DNA of 64,000 bases from Xanthostigma xanthostigma. Taxonomy: Eukaryota > Arthropoda > Insecta > Raphidioptera > Raphidiidae. The notes under the pieces are model-generated. The model worked only from the letters and a program-made list of their open reading frames with translations. It was not told the origin of the DNA and searched no databases. Below, piece by piece: positions 16,100 to 56,400 of the stretch. Numbering within the stretch: position 1 is the stretch's first letter; each line of letters begins with the position of its first letter. The stretch is taken from the NCBI GenBank assembly GCA_963575645.1, contig OY754470.1:13400501-13464500 (forward strand). Direction: 5' to 3'. A program made the position numbers and the translations under genes.

Positions 16100-19000
16100 A
16101 TACCTTCTAAAGATTTGCCATATGCCAGCTCAGGGAGCATGGAACGTCGAAGACCACCTTTTCTTCGACCTTCTACAGCCAGATCCAGATCAGAGGTTGT
16201 TAATTAAATTTTCAATATGAAATTTTAATTTTTCTTGTAAGGGACAGATATTTCTGAAACGAGTCTGGTACTTGAATCCACGAAAATTTTCAAAATAAAA
16301 TCCTCTTGAATCCGTCGAAAAAATATGAGGTGCTACTTAACGTAACCGAGTTGTCTGCACCATGAACGGGAGAGGGGGGATTCAAAACGATTCAACACCT
16401 ATGTCAAGTTGTATCTCCCTAATATCGTAATTTTCTAGCGGAATACAAAATACAGAAGATTCCATAACACTAGTCATATTTGTATTTCCGAACATTCACT
16501 AAAGTTTCATAGAATCAAATTATGGCCCACAAATCATGTCTCAGTCGAAGCACCATTAAATATTTTATAAAAAGTCATATCTTCCTTGACCGCAATCCTT
16601 CAAAAACGAAAATGGTAAATGTATTTACAGTATTTTTTTCTGTATACAATTTGTTTGATTGCTTAATATTTGCAGAAAGAAAGTCCTCATCGGCCAGCAA
16701 GTAGAATGGAGAGTGTGAGAGGACGGGCTGAAGGTGCGGGTTTTGGCAGCAGCTCGGGGGATGAGGGGCCAGGCAGTTCGGAGGCACTGTTGCGCCAAAA
16801 TCAAGAACTACGACGTCGCCTAGAAGACGAGGCCTCTAATTATAAAAGGCGTCTGGACACATACAGGCAGGCCCAACAACATCAGGCGGCACTGGTCAGC
16901 AGATTACAGGCTAAGGTTCACTACTTATACTTATCTATTTACCACCAAGGCAATAAATTGTTGAAATCATAAAATTGCCGTTTTTCAAATCAAACATACA
17001 TAACTGGTAGAACTTCCCTTTTTTCTCCTCCTTCATCCTCTTCAAATATTCTAATGTAAAGATTAATTAGTACCTAACTATAAAACAGCAAATTCAATTA
17101 CATTTTATAGTTTTTGATTATTTGTTAATATCAGGTTCTTCAATATAAACAACGTTGTTCAGAATTGGAAAATCAGATGGTGGAAACGCTTCCAGCCGTA
17201 AGCGAACCGTCCGGACCTAGCCGTCCGTCCAGCTTAGCTTTAGGCGCACCGGCTGCTCCTGGTTCTGCTTTGGACCAAGCACAACAACATCTCAGAGAAA
17301 TACGAGAAGAACGAATCCATAATCTCGACACTGCCCTCAGACATTTAGATGAAGAAAAGCGAAAGTATGAACACATTCTTTATTTTTATTTTCAGAATAT
17401 TATTCCTGATCGCGTTTAAAAATGAGTTTTTAATAATTTTTAGATGTGAAAATTTAATGCAACTAAATAAAACTCTAAGGGAACAGCTTGAAGAATCACA
17501 TCAAACAAATGAAGCTTTGACATCTGATTTGCAGAAGTTAACAAATGACTGGGAACAACTGAGGGAAGAAATGATTGTTAAAGAAGACGAGTGGAAAGAT
17601 GAAGAACAAGTAAGTTTATTAAAAATTATGTTTCTATTTTATATAAAATAAGTTTGTTTTGATCTGCCAATTAACAGGTCTACCTATTTTGTAATTTGGC
17701 GTAGCTTCCTTAACTGTGTATTTCCAGGAACTATGTTCTCTGTTGGAAACGTTTCCAATCCTTTCCTAGAACGTATTTTAACGTGGTCATATAGTTCCGA
17801 AATCTAACAATATCGTCAACGATCACTGTATTCGATTAATTCTGAACCGCCAAAGGAAAAGAGAAGAAAGCGCGTTTAATAAAGATTGCAAGCTTTTCCT
17901 TCCTTCAACCCAAATGTGAATGAAACAGTGGAACTAGATAGTTTCGCGAACATGTTTCCGCGAACTAGTTCCCCGCAATATAGGAATCGTCCCGTGTTCA
18001 TTCCATCTTTAGAACTTTTCTGCGCAAGCTAAAATGCTATATTATTATATCGTATGCTTTTTTTCAATAAATCATCAAGGCGTTTAACGATTATTATACA
18101 ACGGAACACAATCGACTATTAGGATTGTGGCGGGACGTCGTGTCTGTCAAGAGATTGTTTAACGATGTTCAAACGAGCACCGAACGAGATTTGAACAAAC
18201 TGCGTTCGGAATTAGTAAACACCGGCCGCGAAATGTCGACAGCTTGCAATACGGTTGCCGCTAACGTGTTCATGCAAACAGCAAGTCCAGGAGTAAGTAA
18301 ACAAATAAAATATTACTAATAAACTTTTAGTCAATATTAACGAACCATTCGGTATTTTGTTATGTTTTTAGTGTTAGGGGAATAATTGAACTGGAAGCAT
18401 GTTTTGTTTTCCGGTAAAACCAGCGTAAGTTTGAAACCATCAGATGGCCTTGAACGATTAATGAGTATATCGTAAAGGCTTGGAAAATGATTTGATGCTT
18501 GTAATATCTTTGCAACTCTGTGCGGACGTTGAAGTAAATGTATTCCCAGAGCACCAAATATTTCAATATCTCTGCAAGGGAACTGTTTGATGTTTTGGAA
18601 AGGTATTTACTACAATTCCCGCACCGAGTTGTAGATGCATTGCAAGCAGCAAATCTATCTTCAGTCCTTCGTCATACTCGTTCACGACCAGCTGATTGTT
18701 TGGGCTAGGGCTACAAACATACCAGTCATTGGCAAATATTTGATTCGAATGTTTGTCTACCTCTACTCAGACCCAGCTAGAACCAATGTTCCTTGGTGAA
18801 TATTTGCTTCCTGAACAATTACCAAGGGTACTCCCGCTTAAATATTTGATGGTTTCAAACTTACTCTAGTTTCATCAGAAAACGCAACATGTTTCAAATC
18901 CAGTTATTCCTACTAAAACACTAAAAATATGTCGGAAAAATTTTATTTCGCGGATTTTTTACGTAAAAATATGTAAATATGATTTGAAGTACTTTCTGAT

Positions 19001-44665: not shown

Positions 44666-47600
44666 ATGTCCAGGAATAGAAAGAGAATATGCATAATCGG
44701 ATCTGGAAATTGGTAACTAATTTTCAATTACCATCCGTAGAAAAGAAAGTTATTTTTCTCATACGTTGTTTTAGGGCAGCTGTATTTGCAAAAATTATAG
44801 GCAATAATGTTACACGATACTCTGAATTTGAAGATCGAGTGACAATGTATGTATATGAAGAAGTTGTGGGGAATAGAAATTTGACAGACATAATAAATGA
44901 AGATCACGTGAACACAAAATATTTATCAAAATGTAAAATACCGCCAAATGTTGTAAGTCCGTTTTTATCAACTAGGTATTAGGGCCGAGCCTTATCGAGC
45001 TACCACTGCAGCGCAACTGGTTTAGTTGTCATGGGTTTTCTCTAGGCTGCCAACAAGGGAACCAACGACACCTCACAGGATGCAGTTTCAAAAAATCAAT
45101 GATTTTATTGATGGCTCAATTGTTGAGATAATTTCTTATTTAAAGTTAATTATGTACAAGTTATAGTTATAGCGTTGATGACAGAAATGGTCAAGGAGTA
45201 TTTGGTGGCAGAAACGCTCTCTTTCGTGTAGTCTGAGTCCCCTTCTACAAATCCGCTTAGTAGAGTAGGGGTCTAGCGCGTTGCGGTACGACGCTGGGGC
45301 ACTTTAAAAAAAAAAAAACGGCAAAACTCAAAATTCCTCTACAAAATGGCAGAAAATGACTGAACGGCATCTGAGGAACGTTCTAGTTGCAGAAAAAATA
45401 TTTCCAGCCAATTTATACCCTGCAGAGACTTTCAAAAAACCGAAAAAAAGTCAAAAAAATTGAATTTGAAGTTGAAACTTGACATAATGGCTGATTCGGT
45501 GGCCCGGAATACGAGAAAGAATTTACGTGACGCCAAGTGACCTCACTCCTTTCGACGATTCTTCAAAATCTGCACAGGCAAAAATTCGAAAAGTCCTCGC
45601 GCGGTGGCAGAAATTCTTACCAGACTTTCTATTAGTACCCAAAAAGTTTGTAAAAAAGATTATCTGCCAATTTAATTTACTTGTCATTAATGCTTTACTT
45701 GAATACCATGTCAAACTTTCCGCGAACATGACGCGTTTTTGCAAGGTCGATTTTGGCAGAAAACTGTACCCCAGGATTCTCTACAAGAAGACGAACCGTT
45801 TGAGCTAGGTTTCACTCACCGAGCTTTTTTTAAATGTATTTATTTTGTATTTATTTATTATACTAACAGTCTCTGCTGGGAGTAAATTGGCAGAAAATAT
45901 TTTTTCTGCATTTAGGAGGTCCACCCAGATGCCTTGTAGTCATTTTCAGTCATTTTGTAGAGGAATTTTGAATTTTCTCTTTTTTTAAGTGCCCCAGCGT
46001 CGTACCGCAACGCGCTAGATCCCTACTCCACTAAGCGGATTTGTAGAGGGGTACTCAGACTACACGAAAGAGAGTGTTTCTGCCACCAAGTGCTCCTTGA
46101 CCATTTCTGTCACCACCCTACCTAACTACAGTGTAAACTCTTTATAACGAAACTCAAGGGACCGAGCATTTTTTATCGTTATAGAGAGTTACCGTTATAT
46201 GGAGTGAAGAAAGAAAAACAACCAAATTAACAATAATCTTCAATGTACTGTATAATCTCTTTATAACGAATTTTAAGGGACCGAACATTTTTTTCGTTAT
46301 AAAGAATTTTCGTTATATGGAGGGAAGAAAGAAAAATAACCAATTTTCACAAAATTAATTTATTCCAAACACATATACAAACACATATGCCTATAGTTTG
46401 GCGTCATCAAGTGCTTGTTGAATAGATGGTGATGGTTCAGAATGGTTCTCTTTATGTCTGTAAACATTTGCTGACGCCTAAATATGAACATATTTCTTCG
46501 TAATAGAGAATGGCTGTTGCGTTATAAAGAGGGTATTTAATGTATAGGTTTTAAGGTAAACCAACCAAATCGTAAAAATTTCGACGTTATAGGGAGTTTT
46601 TCGTTATAACGAAGGACGTTATAAAGAGTTTACACTGTATGTGTGAGTCTATCAGTGATACGAATATACTTAGGTATCTTCAGACTTCAGAGATAAGGTA
46701 TCTTATTTGTTTTATTGCAGTATGCCATGTCAGATGTGACACTGGCCGCTAAAGATGCTGATATTATAGTGTTTGCGGTGCCGCAACGCTTTGTTCGTTC
46801 TTTAATTTCAGCACTACTGGGTAAAATAAAAAGAAAAGTTTTTGGAATTTCATTTGTTAAGGTATAATTTCTTTTTTATTGACAGCACTTACAGTCGGGG
46901 TTATTTAGGCCAAGTACCAATTCATATTTTCAAAATATTGTTTTTTTTTTTAATAAGAAATTGAAAATTCATGTTTACTAATTTTCGAATTAGAACCGGG
47001 ATTTTGGGGTCTTATAGTATTGAAGAACATTAAAGGATTAAAACGAAGAAATCAGAGTAATGAAAACGTACACTTTTCAGGGATTTGATGTAACAAAGCA
47101 TGGTGAATTGGCATTAATGTCGGCAAAATTATCACGACGTCTGCATATGCCTTGTGCATGTCTAATGGGACATACTTTAACTCGAGAAATTGTTGAAGAA
47201 AAATATAGCGAAGCGACTCTCGGATGTTTCGATCCGCAGTTAGGACGCATGTTTCAAAAAATTTTACAGACCAGTTATTTTCGGGTATATATCGTCGAAG
47301 ATCAGGACGCAGTAGAAATAATGGCTGGATTAAAGGTCTAATATTGCTTACAGAGTAAAGTTATAGTATGCGGGTGTCAGATGTGTTCTTGACTTAGTAA
47401 GCCAGTTAGCATAAGAAAATTAAAATCTTACTTTAATTTCAATTAAAATTTTTATTATTATTAAGTCTTTATTTTTTCTGTTATTCATTACAAAAACAAT
47501 TAGCCGTCGTGAGAACGCCTGGCAGATGTGAAACATAAATTTAAGCGAAATTGTAGTAGCTAAATTTCGCCCTGTAAGTAAATTTCACTCTAACTAAATT

Positions 47601-50600
47601 TCGCCCTGTCATATTAAAAATACTCGCGCGCACACACAGAGGAGTCGAAAGCGGTGGCGTAGAGGGGGCTTGACGGCATAAGAGAGCAAGGGCGTAAATA
47701 TTTTTTTTAAGAATACCTATACTCACGAACGAAGGTGTCAAGCAAACTATTAATTCTCAAACCAATTTTACAAATTTTTTTCAAGAAGTAGGTATTTCTA
47801 AATTCTATTTTTTAGCCAGGTATTCGTGTTATTTTCAGTTTTATTTTTTTATTATTATGATCCTGGGGGGCAATTACCTCCTTTATGCCCCCCCCCCTAT
47901 TTACGCCCTTGTAAGAGATCGTCATGTCGTTTGGCATGGTTTTACTGCCAAGGCGCACCAACAGACGTTCCACATCAATAAGTTAAATATAAAATTATTA
48001 TTCTCAAGGAAAACAGAGACGTGGTATACAGGTGTCCCATTAAGAATGGGACATAGAACAACCGCAGATTCTCCAATTCAAAATAAAACGATTAAGCGAA
48101 ATATGCTTAGATAAAATGTTACTCGTTTCCGAAATACGGGGTGTTGAAGTTGAAAACTGAAAAATTTTTAATGTCCATATTTTTTTTAATACACCGTATA
48201 ATTTTACTCAAATCGGCACACTTGTTAAATATCAGAAAATGCACCTAACAATAAAAAAATTAGTTCAGTAAGCTCTACCAGTGGCGTACGGCAGGAGTAA
48301 GTAATGCTTGTACCCCTTCTAAATGTTACGTCGCTGTCTAAATTTTAATTTTGACTATAATTTTAATTTTTTTGATATTTTCTAAGTCAATAATGTACAC
48401 TTGTTAGTTTACAACAAACTAACAAGTGTACATTATTGACTTAGAAAATATCAAAAAAATTAAAATTATAGTCAAAATTAAAATTTAGACAGCGGCGTAA
48501 CATTTAGAAGGGGTACAAGCATTACTTACTCCTGCCGTACGCCACTGGTAGAGCGAGTAACATTTTATCTAAGCATATTTCGCTTAATCGTTTTATTTTG
48601 AATTGGAGAATCTGCGGTTGTTCTATATCCCATTCTTAATGGGACACCTGTATTTTAAATTAAATTTTCAGAACATTGTCGCATGCGCAGCTGGCTTTAT
48701 GGATGGTTTAGATATGGGCTATAATACGAAAGGCGCCATTTTACGTTTGGGATTGATGGAAATGGTCAAATTCATAGAATTATTCTATTCACACTGTAAA
48801 TTGAGCACTTTTTTTGAAAACTGCGGAATAAACACATTGATGCTGTCGTGTATTACGGGTAGAGAGCGTCGCATGGGCGAAGCGTTTGTTAAAACTAAAA
48901 AGTCATTCCATGAGCTCGAACAACTAATGATCAATGGTCGACCATTTCCAGCTAAAAGCGTAGCCGCACACGTTAATAAAATGCTTAAAACAAAAAATAT
49001 GGTGAAGGGGTAATATTTTTAGTTAAAATTATTTTTAACCAGAGTTCAAAAATTACAAAATTAATGCGGAAAGATTTTTTACAATATCTTTAAAAATAAC
49101 AAAGTTATACTACTTCAAAGTTTAAATATGATATTTCTCTGCGCTATGCCGTTCTCTCCTCAGATGACGTCAAGCGGCACAAATTTCATATTTAGGTATA
49201 GTAATTTGTGTTCAAAAAACTGTCTGTGTTATCGAAATATTATTATGATAGTTTTCTAGAAGAACTATTTTTTTTTGTTAATTTGTACTATTAAATACAA
49301 ATAAATAACAACAGAGAACGGAGAATTAACAGCTGAATAATTAATGTAAAAATAATCTAATGTCAATTAGGAAGTTTGATATACAAAATATACCCTTGAA
49401 ATTTATACATAATTATAGATCAAGATCCCAGAGCCGCCATACCTACTTAATTTTAGTACTGTTAAGATTTTACCAATACATGTACAATATTTAGTTAAAG
49501 GCGTATGCCAATTTGCTAGCTTGAAAGCGGGGCCCTTTTATAATAACGCGTACTAAAGGTACTTAAAAATCGAGCTTACCTACATTAAAGTAATGGTTTT
49601 CATATTTATGTTTTACACAAAAGCCAAATAGTTCGATTGCGATTTTATTCCTACGCTCAGTATAGAATAAAAGTATATGGAATCAAGTGTATAAATTACA
49701 GTTAGTGATGTGCCGGATATCCGTATCCGCGGATATCCGAGGGAGAAGAAAGATCCGTATCCGTATCCGTTAGTTTTATGGCGGATCTTTTACCTTATTA
49801 ATTTTCAATTCATAGATGAAATTTTATATATATAGGTGATTAGGTAATAATGAAAAACTGTTAAATTCCATTCAGATTTTTTTTTATTTCTTAAAATCGT
49901 ATTTGGCACCTTTATATTGCAAAAATTTATCGTAGAGAGTACCATACCAATAGTATACATAACTCAAAGGTACTAATAAAAAACTATCTTTATAATGAGA
50001 TATTGCACATCGATCTTTGGAAAGAGACAATCTGTTATGAGAGTTAACTCAATAACTTTTTCCCATAGCAGATAGTCTCTTTCCAAAGGTCGATGTGCAC
50101 TATTTACCGCCGCGTACTCTGAGAAAGTTAAGATCCGTATCCGTATCCGCGGATCTTGAAACCAAATATCCGTATTCAGATCCGTATCCGCGGATATGAA
50201 TTTTTAACGATCCGGCACATCACTAATTACAGTGCACTTTCAGGTTCAAAAGCGCTAACTAATTTTTTTCCTGTTTTGTAGTTTTCCATTATTTACGGCA
50301 GTACATAAAGTGTGCACTAATCAAATAAAAGTTACTGACTTTATTGATCAAATTCGAAGTAGCCCTGAGCATATGTAAGTACAAATTATAATACCGTATA
50401 AACAATGAATTTAAACAATTGGTAGATATGTAGAATTGGTCACTTTATCGTTTAACCGTTAATCGTTAATTATAATGATGTAACAATTTGCTTAACGATT
50501 TAACGATAACGTAAATGTAGAAAATGATGTAGCAGGTATAGACTGTAGGCCATGTAATAGATGGCTGAATTTGACAATTGCTAGAACAAATTAATACTTT

Positions 50601-51449
50601 TGGTAAACCTAACATACACATCAAGATGATCAGTGTCAATTTCACTGGTATCTACATTCTACACTACACACCAATATTATTTTATAGTAGGTATGTTACT
50701 TATTACGAATTCTACGTCAAAAGTTATTAAAAAAAGTTGTGGAGAATTTTATTACCTACATTTTTGAACTGAAAACTTCTTTAGCGGCGTTGTACACTTT
50801 TTTTGTAATGGGTAAAAAATTTTAAACGCGTCAGATTGAAAATTCGTAAGACCAAATTCGTAAGACCTGATCGAAAATTCGTAAGACAAAATTCGTAAGA
50901 CGAAAACTTTTGTACACTTTTTTTGTAATGGGTAAAAAATGTTAAACTCGCGTCAGATTGAAAATTCGTAAGACCAAATTCGTAAGACCTGATCGAAAAT
51001 TCGTAAGACAAAATTCGTAAGACGAAAACTTTTGTACACTTTTTTTGTAATGGGTCAAAAATGTTAAACTCGCGTCAGGACACGTGACCTGATCGAAAAT
51101 TCGTAAGACGTTAATATTCAAGTTTTCACTTCTGCCGACACTCCCGGAGTGCAACCCGTCTTTTTTTTGTAAAACTCACAATTACGGAAACAACAAACAA
51201 CTATTACACCCTTCTTTTGAAGATGGAGGCCAAATGTCAGTAACCCGATCTCGAATACCCACTTTAGTTCACCACCGACCCCCCCCCCTCCAACGAATAA
51301 AAAAATCTATTCAAATCAATGCACTATTTAACCTACCACCTATAGAACATTCTCGATAATGCCTACGCATATCTAATTAATGTATTTTCTAAAACAATGG
51401 AATATTATTTTACAGATTTGCTCCCAAGAATTTGTCACTAAATGAATAA
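44666..51449 (+). CDS. GPD1: Glycerol-3-phosphate dehydrogenase homologue with altered active site
   Basis: Homologue of the cytosolic NAD-dependent enzyme that interconverts dihydroxyacetone phosphate and glycerol 3-phosphate. Exons: 44666-44712, 44775-44952, 46721-46861, 47081-47335, 48672-49009, 50282-50374, 51416-51449; phases match and give 361 residues (family about 350-360). Start chosen at ATG 44666 ([16 protein letters not shown]). Recognisable blocks: the [12 protein letters not shown] stretch, [37 protein letters not shown] and [11 protein letters not shown]. Lysines equivalent to human K120 and K204, the following Asn (N205) and R269 are kept (K122, K207, N208, R271). Other hallmarks differ: the nucleotide motif is GSGNWA rather than GSGNWG; VPHQF is VPQRF; MGANIA is MGHTLT; and residues equivalent to human D260, T264 and N270 are Thr262, Ser266 and Glu272. 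The frame and splice sites are intact, so this looks like a functional but diverged paralogue, or a pseudoenzyme, rather than a dead gene. Human numbering is from memory. Confidence 0.9.
45179..46112. mobile_element. Long-TIR element in GPD intron 2
   Basis: Arms of about 185 bp (45179-45362 and about 45936-46112) start TGACAGAAATGGTCAAGGAG and share CGTTGCGGTACGACGCTGGG. The 570-bp middle holds one frame of 93 codons (45527-45808) with basic, somewhat protein-like composition but no family I recognise. Target duplication not found. Confidence 0.65.
46139..46637. mobile_element. Tigger-like MITE in GPD intron 2
   Basis: CAGTGTAAACTCTTTATAAC and GTTATAAAGAGTTTACACTG are perfect inverted ends, flanked by TA (46137-46138, 46638-46639). 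A second partial copy of the left terminal region begins near 46248 (TACTGTATAATCTCTTTATA). Confidence 0.8.
47495..47690 (-). repeat. Unclassified dispersed repeat, copy 2, in GPD intron 4
   Basis: Reverse copy of the repeat at 2205-2525: TAGCCGTCGTGAGAACGCC, TGGCAGATGTGAAACATAAA, CTAAATTTCGCCCTGTAAG, GCGCGCACACACAGAGGAG. Confidence 0.5.
48027..48652. mobile_element. 99-bp TIR element in GPD intron 4, hosting a foldback
   Basis: Near-identical arms (48027-48125 and 48554-48652) begin TACAGGTGTCCCATTAAGAA. The element ends 19 bases before exon 5. A separate foldback at 48272-48554 lies against the inner edge of the right arm. Confidence 0.75.
48272..48554. mobile_element. Near-perfect foldback with 139-bp arms
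   Basis: Arms 48272-48410 and 48416-48554 match with about one difference around a 5-base loop (ACAAC). The terminal word CAGTGGCGTACGGCAGGAG is hAT-like. High arm identity suggests a young insertion, or gene conversion between arms. Confidence 0.75.
49703..50225 (+). mobile_element. hAT MITE, family A copy 5, in GPD intron 5
   Basis: Perfect duplications ATTACAGT (49695-49702, 50226-50233) flank TAGTGATGTGCCGGATATCC and GATCCGGCACATCACTA. It ends 56 bases before exon 6. Confidence 0.9.
50771..51115. repeat. 120-122-bp tandem repeat in GPD intron 6
   Basis: TGTACACTTTTTTTGTAATG recurs at 50791, 50911 and 51033. Each unit has several AATTCGTAAGAC words. About 2.8 copies, the last one rearranged. 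Confidence 0.8.
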
Positions 51450-53427
51450 CAATATTATGTCTTTTAAAATGTAATTATTATGAATAAAAATGAAATTATC
51501 AATTTTGAATTCGAATTTGATATAAGATAGCTAACAATATTTTTGTAACAATAAATTTTATGAAAAATTTTGCATTGAGTACCTAAATAATTTAAGAAAT
51601 ACAAACCGCAACAGTTCACTAAAATCCGACCTACTATAGAGACATTTTAAAAGTATTCTTAAAAGCATTTATTCAACACGCGTGAGTAATATATAATTTC
51701 GGGGCCCTGCTAAATTCTGGAGAAATAATAAATTACTTCATGTTGACGCGTAGAGTGCTAATAATGAGTCGAAACTGTACGATAATATATTACTGCATAG
51801 TTTCTGAACCAATAGGAACACGGTAGCGATTTGTATATATGAAAACAGCATCGCAATTCAGCGAAAGTCAGGGCCATCTTGTGTGCATCGAGGGCGGTGG
51901 GTACATCAATCAATGAAGTGATTTATTATTTTTCCCTCTTTTATCAGGGCCCCGATTACATATTACTCCTGCTAGTTGAATAAAATATTATGTGCGACCA
52001 TTGATCATGAGCGTGAAATTTGCCGCACGAGCGTAGCGGGTGCGGTAACATGCGAGTGGAATATAATGGTAAAAAATGTCAAAAATGACTTTTGCATCTG
52101 TCAAAGTATTATGTTCTGATAATAGGTCATATGCATGAGACTCCAAATTGGTTTAAATTTTTATTTTGAAATATATTTTAGTTCCTGATCATATCGTAAT
52201 GGTTATTTTATTAATCTAATCACTGAAAAAAATACAAATAATAAAATAGAAACGTAGAAAATACGCGCTATTTTCGAATTTTCAAAACGCAGCGTGACGT
52301 CAGTGTATATATCAATAACAGTTTCCATGGCGACTGGGTCGTCTCACAGTAAGATTAAGTCAGTATTTAGAGAAAACAACAAATAAACTTCATTTAGAAC
52401 ATTGACAATTTGACATCAAAGTTGACATGCATCATATATCGTGACGTCACATAAGCCCGCCAACATGGCCGATTGTTTAAACTGTCTATTTTTGAATGTG
52501 AAATTTCATATTTTTTTTCTTGTGATAATATTACATTTTTAAATGATTATCAATTTTTTTCCGTATTATGGTTGACTAAATAATCTATTAAAAATATAAA
52601 AAAAATACATGCATATGACCTATTATTAGTTATTCAAATTGTTAACTAGGAAGGCGTTGCATTTCACAAATATTTGTTTTGGCATCCGTTTTTGTTAAAC
52701 AAATGCAATCTTTTTATTTTATTATTTTAATAAATAAAATTATCGATCAATTTTAAGCTACCCGTAGACGAATCGAACAAAAAAGAGTTTTTTAAAATCG
52801 GTTAAGGCGTTTGGGTTGTACGCTGGATACAAAAAGCGAGACTCGCAGATCCACAAAGCGAGTACATATAGGCGCTTCCAGCTAAAGCTTGGGTCGCGCC
52901 TAAAAAGCTTTGTAAGACGGTGTATTGTGTCAGTTTTACTTTGAATCACTAAAAACAACTAAAATTCAAAATGTAAAATTGTGAAAGAAGTATTAAAGGT
53001 GTCAACACTTTGTGTTTTTTTTTTAATTATTTTATCTGCTGTGTAATTACAATAATCGTAATCAATTATCAGATGATGACTGATAGGCAAAAGCACTAAT
53101 CATTAATCAATGATAAAGAATTTAATAAATAATTTTGGAATGGTTTTTCTTAAAGAATTTCACAATTACAATTTGTTATATCAGATGTAATTTTTATACA
53201 TTTTGTGTTATATTTAAAATTATTATTAAATTTCTTTACAACAGCGATTTTTTTGCGCCAACATTACTCTCAATGTATATCTATGGATTTATTCACTTTA
53301 TTCGCCCGAAAACCACCAGTACCGTGTCACTGTTCATTATACACGAAGACTACCCTCCATAGTTATACTGTCGCTGGTTGTACTGTACTGTACGTCAAAT
53401 TCGTGACAGTATGGTTATGTTTTCAAA
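51450..53427. other. Spacer between the GPD-like gene and SUPT7L
   Basis: 52119-52626 is bounded by inverted ATAATAGGTCATATGCATG, a likely TIR element of unknown class. The SUPT7L promoter must lie in the last few hundred bases, but I see no defined TATA or initiator. Confidence 0.45.
51483..51488 (+). promoter_or_regulatory. Poly(A) signal of the GPD-like gene
   Basis: AATAAA 34 bases after the stop at 51449, in an A/T-rich 3' region. A second candidate lies near 51550. Confidence 0.6.
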
Positions 53428-56400
53428 ATGTCAAAATTGTGGGGTGAATTTGAAAAAATAGAAAAGAAAGAACGGACAGATGTGTCAGATTTGATAGTTA
53501 AAGCATTACATCCCAACTGTTTAAATGAATATAAAGACTATTTGTCAACATTATTCGTATCGAAAAAACAAACCGAAGAAATAACGTAAGTAATGTGTAA
53601 TATTAGCCAATACTATTTTAGATTATCGAAAACACTAAAAAGAAATTCATTATCTTCAAAAAATTAAAATATATAAAACACGAAAAATTTGATTTTATCA
53701 CACGTTTAAAAGTCGGAATTTCGTAAAAACTTGTTAGTCCGTATTTTTAATTTATAATAACCCACAATGCTTTAGGAATAATAGCTCCATTTGTCAGAAC
53801 AAAATTGGTAATTTTAATACATCATAAAATATAAAGTCAGTGTAGTTCGGAGCAAGAACACAAAATAAGTTGCGCACTTAGGGTTGGGTAACTCAGATCT
53901 GAACCGGTTCAAAGAGCCGACTCCGACAGAAGATCCGTGAGAACCGGCTCACTTTTTTATGAGCCGACGGATCAACGGATCCGCATAACTCAGTGAAACA
54001 CTTACACACAGAAGCACAGAAGTATCTGTCAGCTCAAATGACTGATGCATATATTTGGCTATGCATTCTACAACTATACAGTGTACTCACTATGCACTAG
54101 GTGACTAGGCGGTACAATTATTACAGTGTTTTACTTAAGTCACAACTATTTAAGGTATTGTATTGCATATTGTAATATGCTTTCTGTAACATAGCAAGTA
54201 GCAACCTGTAAAACCCCGCCTTATAATATGTGAGTCAGTCACTGGCATAATATTACGTGATATGATTGACTTGACTCAACTAACTCAGTGGCTCAGTTGA
54301 CTCGAATAACATATTCAGAACTCGGCTCTTTTTGAACCGGTTCAGGGAGCCGACTCACATACGGGATCCAGATGCAAAGATGCAGATCACTAAAAACACC
54401 CGTTTGTCTAATCTCTATTGCGCACTCAACGCGAATCCACTATTAAAAAGCAATAGCATTGATTAAGGTAATCAATGGCAATAGCTGATTCAGAAATACA
54501 ACTTAATCATTTTGATTTTACAGATTACCAATAGTAGAGACAAGAATACTTCATACAATAGAACTGCATCAATATGAAAATCAAATTTTGGACATGATAA
54601 ATTTAACCAAAAATACAGTACGTATTATCCAAGAGTGTAGGCTTTCACGGCCTGCGTTCTAAATCTTCTTGGATTCCGGGCTTGTATGCCGTGGTTCATT
54701 GGTATTTCTATCTGACGTTTCCTAATAATGTTTACCGCAGTTGTAGACGAAACGTCGGATAGAAATACCAATGGACCACGACCTACAAGCCCGGAAACCA
54801 AAAAGATATTATATAGAGCGTATTATATTTAAAGCTAAACTTCTTTTCGCACGATATGTAGGGCAAATTCAATTCATGAGATTGAAAGTGTAACGAAAAG
54901 CTGCAAAGATAAAGGTCTGTGAATCAAACCATGAAAAACCCCGCTAATGCACGTATACCGTATACTATAAAAATCGGCTGTACAGCATTAGGCTATGGTG
55001 GGTGAGAGATATAGTGACCGGTTCCCTTTTTAATACTCATTAACTTCTGAAAAATATGTTTAAACTTCATAAAATTATGCAACCAAATTTGCAGATAAGC
55101 TCCAATTTAGGGTAAAATTCTGGAGATGTGAATAATTTAGGTTGTTTAGGAGTGACAAAATTTCGCAGGGCCTACAAAACGATAGTTGGATACCCTATAC
55201 CAGGGGCGGGCAAATCTTTTGATCGGCGGGCCACATAGCTGATGAAAATTCGACCGCGGGCCAAATATTTGCAGAGTAAAAAAAAAAAGATTCTCACATT
55301 CTATTTCCGCATTTGGAGAGCAAAAAAAGGTCCTCAAAAAAAAAGATTTTCGTCTGTTCTGGCGCCCTTGCTATTTCTTTACTATTTTTCTAAAATTTAT
55401 AAAATTGTGCTGCGGGCCGGATCCGGCCCGCGGGCCGCCATTTGCCCAGGCCTGCCCTATACCATATCGAGTAGTATAATTTTTAATTCAATCCTAAGAA
55501 ACAATAGAAATTTTATGAGACATTAATATTTTATAGTAATATATAAAGCTGAAGAGTTTGTTTGTTTGTTTTGTTGAACGCGCTAATCTCAGTAACTATT
55601 AGTTTTAATTGAAAAATTATATTTGTGTCGGATAGTCCATTTACCGAGGAAGGCTATAGGCTATATATTACACTACGACCAATAGGAGCGGAGCATCAAT
55701 GAAAAATGTTGCAAATTATATATAAAAGCGTTTGTCCTGACTGATTCATCAACGCCCTGGTCAAACCGCTTAAGCTATAAACTTGGACAGTAGGTTCCTT
55801 TTATGACGTAAGCACCCACTAAGAAGGGATTTTTGAAATTCGCATCCTAACGGGGTGTAAAGGTTTCTGGTAAAATGGCCATATTTCAAAAATCGTTAAA
55901 ATGAGTGACATTGAATTCAACATACGCACTCTTCATGAAAATTAAACAAACCCCTATTTCAACGTTTTTTTAAATTCAACTCCTAAAGGAGTCAAAATAT
56001 TATATTACCCAACAACATTTTGAGGAGGGGAAATCGGAATCTTGCATTAGCGCCGGGTCGCTTACGAAATACATTTTGCTGAATTATATCTATCGCACCT
56101 AGGTAAAACCGGGACGGGCCGCTAGTATTATATAAAATAATAAACCATTTTTTTTTCTTAGATTGAATCAGGTAAACCATTTGTATTGGAGCCGTTGCCG
56201 CCGTTTCCGGAAAGTCCAGATATTAAACCAAAACATTTTTTGTTAAATCCCTTCAAATTTGTGCCGAAACAGTCAAGGTAATTATTATTTTAGTTTTTAT
56301 ATGGTTTCTGTATCGCGATTTGATGCCATTTTTGCGATATCGAGCTTCGAAACCAGATCTAACTAAGATCTACTTATAGGAATGTAAATATATTCTAAAC

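Follow-up and report, generated by a model that had tools for sequence, protein, structure and literature searches.

In the genome of Xanthostigma xanthostigma, we found a second glycerol-3-phosphate dehydrogenase (GPD) gene that is probably an old, constrained and catalytically disabled paralogue of GPD1 with a structural or regulatory role, perhaps in the male germ line. The gene lies within a window of 64,000 nucleotides, the whole stretch of DNA analyzed here, which corresponds to positions 13400501-13464500 of contig C7 in the 623-Mb assembly of 28 contigs. Its gene structure, its paralogy with a canonical GPD1, the constraint on its coding sequence and its substitutions are documented below.

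The seven exons of the window copy (Table 1) join in phase into 1083 nt, or 361 codons without a stop, directly followed by a TAA at 51447-51449. All six introns have GT-AG borders, and the open frame contains no frameshift. The gene model of the sequence-only reading, with seven exons in phase encoding 361 residues, is thus borne out. Both the N- and C-terminal domains of the protein score above the curated Pfam cut-offs (PF01210, 105.1 bits; PF07479, 106.4 bits). The protein also aligns to human GPD1 (1x0v) over residues 5-351 (E 1.2e-99) and scores 370.8 bits against the NCBIfam equivalog for GPD (TIGR03376; cut-off 285.5 bits). Because exons 2-5 match the canonical copy in length and phase and the altered codons lie inside exons, other exon borders that would restore the canonical motifs are unlikely.

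Table 1. Exons of the window copy and repeat elements in its introns. Positions are those of the window; residue numbers following "human" and in substitutions refer to human GPD1.
Feature	Position	Strand	Remarks
Exon 1	44666..44712	+	Start codon and GSGNW of the dinucleotide fold; 47 nt vs 44 nt in the canonical copy
Exon 2	44775..44952	+	178 nt; G15A (A17) adjoins the 5' border; length and phase as in canonical exon 2
Inverted-repeat element, intron 2	45176..46115	.	Arms 45176-45318 and 45973-46115, 92%
Exon 3	46721..46861	+	141 nt; VPQRF; K122 (human K120) retained
Exon 4	47081..47335	+	255 nt; GHTLT replaces GANIA; K207 (human K204) retained
Nearly perfect foldback, intron 4	48026..48653	.	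Arm pairs 99% complementary; inner arms 5 nt apart
Exon 5	48672..49009	+	338 nt; N208 (human N205) and R271 (human R269) retained; family profile match
Exon 5 changes	within 48672..49009	+	D260T, T264S, N270E; loop Q295R, K296P, Q298P
Codon ACA (Thr) at the human D260 position	48834..48836	+	Asp in 14/14 other rows
Exon 6	50282..50374	+	93 nt if spliced; if unspliced, ends in PEHM with TAA at 50376-50378
Possible exon 7	51416..51449	+	51416-51446 coding, then stop; basis is splice signals and a short open frame only

A search for a second, canonical GPD1 had been proposed as a check on the claim that this gene is a paralogue, and such a gene was found on the same contig, 30 Mb away (C7:43.540-43.547 Mb), in agreement with that claim. 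The canonical protein has 350 residues and carries GSGNWG, VPHQF, GANLA, D260, T264, R269, N270, and LNGQKL. It shares 66.5% identity with human GPD1 and 80.6% with a provisional sequence of the Drosophila protein, which serves in all fly comparisons here. For the window protein, identity is 52% with the canonical copy, 50.3% with the fly protein, and 44.5% with human GPD1. In both copies, exons 2-5 measure 178, 141, 255, and 338 nt with equal phases, and the duplicate therefore derives from genomic DNA rather than from a processed transcript. When the C-terminal family, the window protein, and the canonical protein were used as queries against the whole assembly, exons of these two GPD loci were returned, and no third locus was found with these queries or with the N-terminal family. 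The N-terminal family search picked up three exons, all from the canonical gene and none from the window copy; because exon-by-exon searches are limited in this way, a very diverged third GPD could be missed.

In human numbering, the window copy carries G15A (its A17), H95Q and Q96R (VPHQF to VPQRF), A150H, N151T and A153T (GANIA to GHTLT), D260T, T264S, and N270E, and it retains K120, K204, N205, and R269. All of the signature changes listed in the sequence-only reading (GxGxxA, GHTLT, VPQRF, and Thr, Ser and Glu at positions 260, 264 and 270) are present in the protein, and the four retained residues that it named were confirmed in our alignment. Beyond these, Q295R, K296P, L297F, Q298P, and G299A were found in the region of the closing loop, where 292-LNGQKL-297 of animal GPD1 reads INGRPF; this loop is variable among the 11 bacterial GPDs compared, which were hand-picked among 30 listed of 113 matching records and had their frames set by tblastn. 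Across 14 rows (human, fly, canonical, and the 11 bacterial proteins), 17 sites are identical. The window copy keeps 12 of them, namely K120, K204, N205, R269, and eight others, and alters five (A153T, D260T, T264S, N270E, and G299A). In a leave-one-out control, each of the 14 rows altered 0 to 3 invariant sites (of 17-20), with the most in the bacterial row L027, although the distances to the bacterial rows are much larger. The altered positions had been described as close to invariant in eukaryotic GPD1. In our comparison they differ in weight: A153, D260, T264, and N270 are each identical in 14/14 other rows, whereas 95, 96, and 151 vary among the 11 bacterial GPDs, one of these (L027) has Ala at position 15, and all 11 have Pro at position 150. 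Where human, fly, and canonical GPD1 agree, the window copy differs at 87/213 sites; where human, fly, and the window copy agree, the canonical copy differs at 7/133. Set against the former proportion, the active-site residues named for human GPD1 (4/8 altered; PMC12874384) are not preferentially affected. A functioning enzyme should retain every one of the eight.

Eight conserved side chains are described for the active site of human GPD1, namely Q295, R269, N270, N205, T264, K204, D260, and K120 (PMC12874384). Of these, D260 is ion-paired with K120, Q295 holds R269, and N270 is a ligand of the substrate phosphate; once the 292-297 loop closes, K296 touches the cofactor. Single mutants raise the barrier by 6.5 (D260G), 5.6 (N270A), and 2.5 kcal/mol (Q295A), and N270A is better at reducing phosphate-free glycolaldehyde and has lost phosphite activation (PMC12874384). 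In the window copy, D260 and T264, which position the lysines, are both replaced (Thr and Ser), and the phosphate-binding pair retains R269 and has Glu for N270, so that the phosphate site contains an acidic residue. The effects published for human GPD1 are non-additive and concern other substitutions, so no rate is computable for the window protein. Because four of the eight active-site residues are altered together and the phosphate site has gained an acidic residue, ordinary DHAP reduction is predicted to be unlikely. The earlier proposal of lost or changed activity gains from this comparison, as residues whose single replacement cripples human GPD1 are gone, and a loss of activity is predicted from the sequence.

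Between the two copies, differences at codon positions 1, 2, and 3 number 131, 81, and 219 among 350 codons. Synonymous change is saturated (NG86 dN 0.39, dS undefined), so omega is rough. The free optimum of the pairwise codon model also ran to saturation (omega 0.004 at t 62), and for this reason only fixed-omega comparisons were used. With window and canonical copies compared in this way, omega = 1 was rejected (2dlnL 208.4), and omega = 0.2 lay 18 lnL units under the best fit. In a two-branch model, which assumed equal mutational time on both branches and used a coarse grid, a neutral window branch (-2501.8) was about 56 lnL units worse than one with omega 0.1 (-2445.5). When neutral decay was simulated from the window frame (2000 runs), 34% of frames were stop-free at 0.02 substitutions/site, 7.8% at 0.05, and 1% at 0.1; from the canonical copy, 24/1000 frames were stop-free at 0.1 substitutions/site. 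Given the rejection of omega = 1, the worse fit of the neutral branch, and the few simulated frames left open at 0.1 substitutions/site, selection has acted on the protein encoded by the window gene through almost the whole of its history, up to a conceivable very recent loss. Coding constraint had been postulated in the sequence-only reading, and the rejection of neutrality by the codon models agrees with it and makes it long-term. A processed or long-dead pseudogene is unlikely, given the introns kept, the open frame, and the rejection of omega = 1. The window branch is the faster of the two, with 93 unique changes vs 18 in the canonical copy when human GPD1 is the outgroup and 123 vs 16 with the fly protein; with E. 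coli GPD as the outgroup, the contrast is weak (29 vs 15; chi2 4.5).

The window protein lies at about the same distance from the canonical copy as from the fly protein, and the informative sites do not place it with the canonical copy (human outgroup: canonical plus window 2, fly plus window 4, fly plus canonical 9). These patterns suggest that the duplication predates the divergence of this insect from flies, although long-branch effects could mimic them. If the duplication is that old, orthologues would be expected in other insect orders. No confirmed insect relatives were found in viral contigs (4 and 8 pattern matches, with each protein as the query) or in genome contigs (113 pattern matches, with the canonical-plus-human alignment as the query).

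The tail of the window protein, exon 7 included, is uncertain. Exon 6 ends in CATAT|GTAAG, and the unspliced protein ends in SSPEHM followed by a stop. The ATG-TAA-G that closes exon 6 in both GPD copies doubles as the splice donor, and the canonical protein likewise ends at the unspliced exon 6 stop. Splicing to exon 7 would add 10 residues to the window protein, with an AATAAA downstream at 51483. Among 34 candidate acceptors downstream of the canonical gene, scanned without a chance control, none stood out as an exon 7 counterpart. Drosophila is reported to have GPDH forms with their own C-termini, and a moth two GPDH forms (PMC9604208), which makes both the spliced and unspliced tails plausible.

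Several repeats occur in and around the gene. An 82-nt piece of one arm of the intron 2 element recurs on contigs C1-C10 of the assembly at 94-100% identity. The matches number at least 40, this being how many of the 1123 candidates were scored, and two of the 40 are the element's own arms. The near-perfect arm complementarity of the foldback in intron 4 suggests a recent insertion. Inspection by eye found words similar to ATCCGTATCCG in large numbers at both ends of a stretch in intron 5 (49709-50222), and in intron 6 (50826-51110) words such as AATTCGTAAGAC recur. The stretches at 55541-55737 and 49035-49126 are inverted matches to the canonical GPD1 locus or to the flank downstream of it (80-81% identity) and are probably dispersed repeats. 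Upstream, a coiled-coil gene on the + strand is seen at 16667-17648, with coiled-coil frames continuing to about 37051; three of its early frames match Pfam Rootletin, two above and one below the cut-off, and no Rootletin match was found in six later frames.

Compared with cytosolic NAD-dependent GPD1 (EC 1.1.1.8), the window copy shares both Pfam domains, the full-length human alignment, and the canonical exon structure, but it replaces G15, A153, D260, T264, N270, Q295, K296, and Q298. A parallel is found in Drosophila Gpdh2 and Gpdh3, listed as testis-biased duplicates of Gpdh1 with long branches, within one of the 18 energy-metabolism families of that study (PMC7560327). On this description they are, like the window copy, fast-evolving duplicates that accompany a conserved gene. 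The fly also has Gpo-2 and Gpo-3 (PMC7560327), whereas one mitochondrial glycerophosphate oxidase C-terminus was found here: the DAO_C search gave two matches on neighbouring pieces of this genome, probably exons of one gene, and no duplicated mitochondrial partner was found among these matches. Neither Gpdh2 and Gpdh3 nor any paralogue is mentioned in PMC9339270, and PMC11187211, a docking study, was given no weight. The Drosophila S-Laps are likewise enzyme paralogues with changed catalytic residues; two testis-specific members were tested and found enzymatically inactive, and S-Laps are structural in sperm (PMC6388916). The S-Laps are an unrelated protein family, and a sperm role is shown for them but guessed for the window copy.

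An altered enzyme, still a dehydrogenase but acting on a small phosphate-free carbonyl with the help of the retained lysines, is possible but unlikely. The retention of K120, K204, N205, and R269 speaks for it, and it stays in consideration because N270A alone improves glycolaldehyde reduction by the human enzyme and removes its phosphite activation (PMC12874384). However, D260, the holder of K120, is Thr, two new prolines lie in the cofactor-contacting loop, A153 (found in 14/14 other rows) is Thr, and R269 is kept, with the phosphate as its main partner. We rate as distinctly unlikely an ordinary GPD of low activity whose tissue-specific expression would be the reason for its retention, as might be so for fly Gpdh2 and Gpdh3. 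The testis bias and long branches of the fly paralogues (PMC7560327) and the window protein's score above the GPD equivalog cut-off are compatible with it, but the published costs of single changes (PMC12874384) make useful activity unlikely when D260T and N270E are combined.

A pseudogene recently silenced after long use is very improbable. The absence of any stop or frameshift, the intact splice dinucleotides, and the simulated open frames (7.8% at 0.05 and 1% at 0.1 neutral substitutions/site) all speak against it, although a very recent loss would leave no mark (34% open at 0.02 substitutions/site), the window branch is fast (93 vs 18 unique changes, human outgroup), and two introns hold repeat elements. 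A switch to an NADP-dependent GPD hardly merits credence. The third glycine of GxGxxG is Ala in the window copy, a substitution found among NADP enzymes outside the GPD family. However, Gly is kept in 10/11 bacterial rows, with six of the 11 annotated as NAD(P) or NAD(P)H-dependent, and the sole row with Ala15, L027, carries just the annotation glycerol-3-phosphate dehydrogenase. The window and canonical copies do not differ at residues 41-43, which follow beta-strand 2, and the cofactor-contacting A153, K296, and Q298 are replaced along with catalytic and phosphate-binding residues. The suggestion of another cofactor made in the sequence-only reading is poorly supported on these grounds.

For the disabled paralogue that we favor, the following history may be proposed. 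An ancestral insect GPD1 gene would have duplicated with its introns, and purifying selection would have preserved the full-length duplicate protein while its active site decayed. The product would retain the GPD fold, and its reduction of DHAP with NADH would be very poor or absent, since it lacks the Asp that holds K120 in position, has an acidic side chain in place of N270, and has a rewritten closing loop. It would probably serve as a structural or regulatory protein without normal catalysis, such as a partner of the canonical enzyme or a packing component of a specialized cell. A non-catalytic role in the male germ line appears likeliest by analogy with fly Gpdh2/Gpdh3 and the S-Laps, and precedent is what points to this role and site of action. 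On the other side, the retention of K120, K204, N205, and R269 and of 12/17 invariant sites is odd if the active site is useless, and the protein scores above the TIGR03376 cut-off.

If the window protein is a pseudoenzyme, it may be the first in the GPD family for which this is proposed: an open-access literature search found no report of another, and the one paper that dealt with both pseudoenzymes and this dehydrogenase was a survey of PLP proteins in Bacillus. More speculatively, and with low confidence, the window copy could belong to an ancient insect family of pseudo-GPDs that predates the split from flies and has abandoned catalysis on phosphate substrates. Its members would either act on a carbonyl lacking phosphate or assist the canonical enzyme as non-catalytic partners. 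If such a family is real, automated annotation would label its members simply as GPD; the window gene, being above the curated equivalog cut-off, would probably be named an ordinary glycerol-3-phosphate dehydrogenase. The window copy is a natural combination of changes at positions that have been dissected singly in human GPD1, which makes it directly testable.
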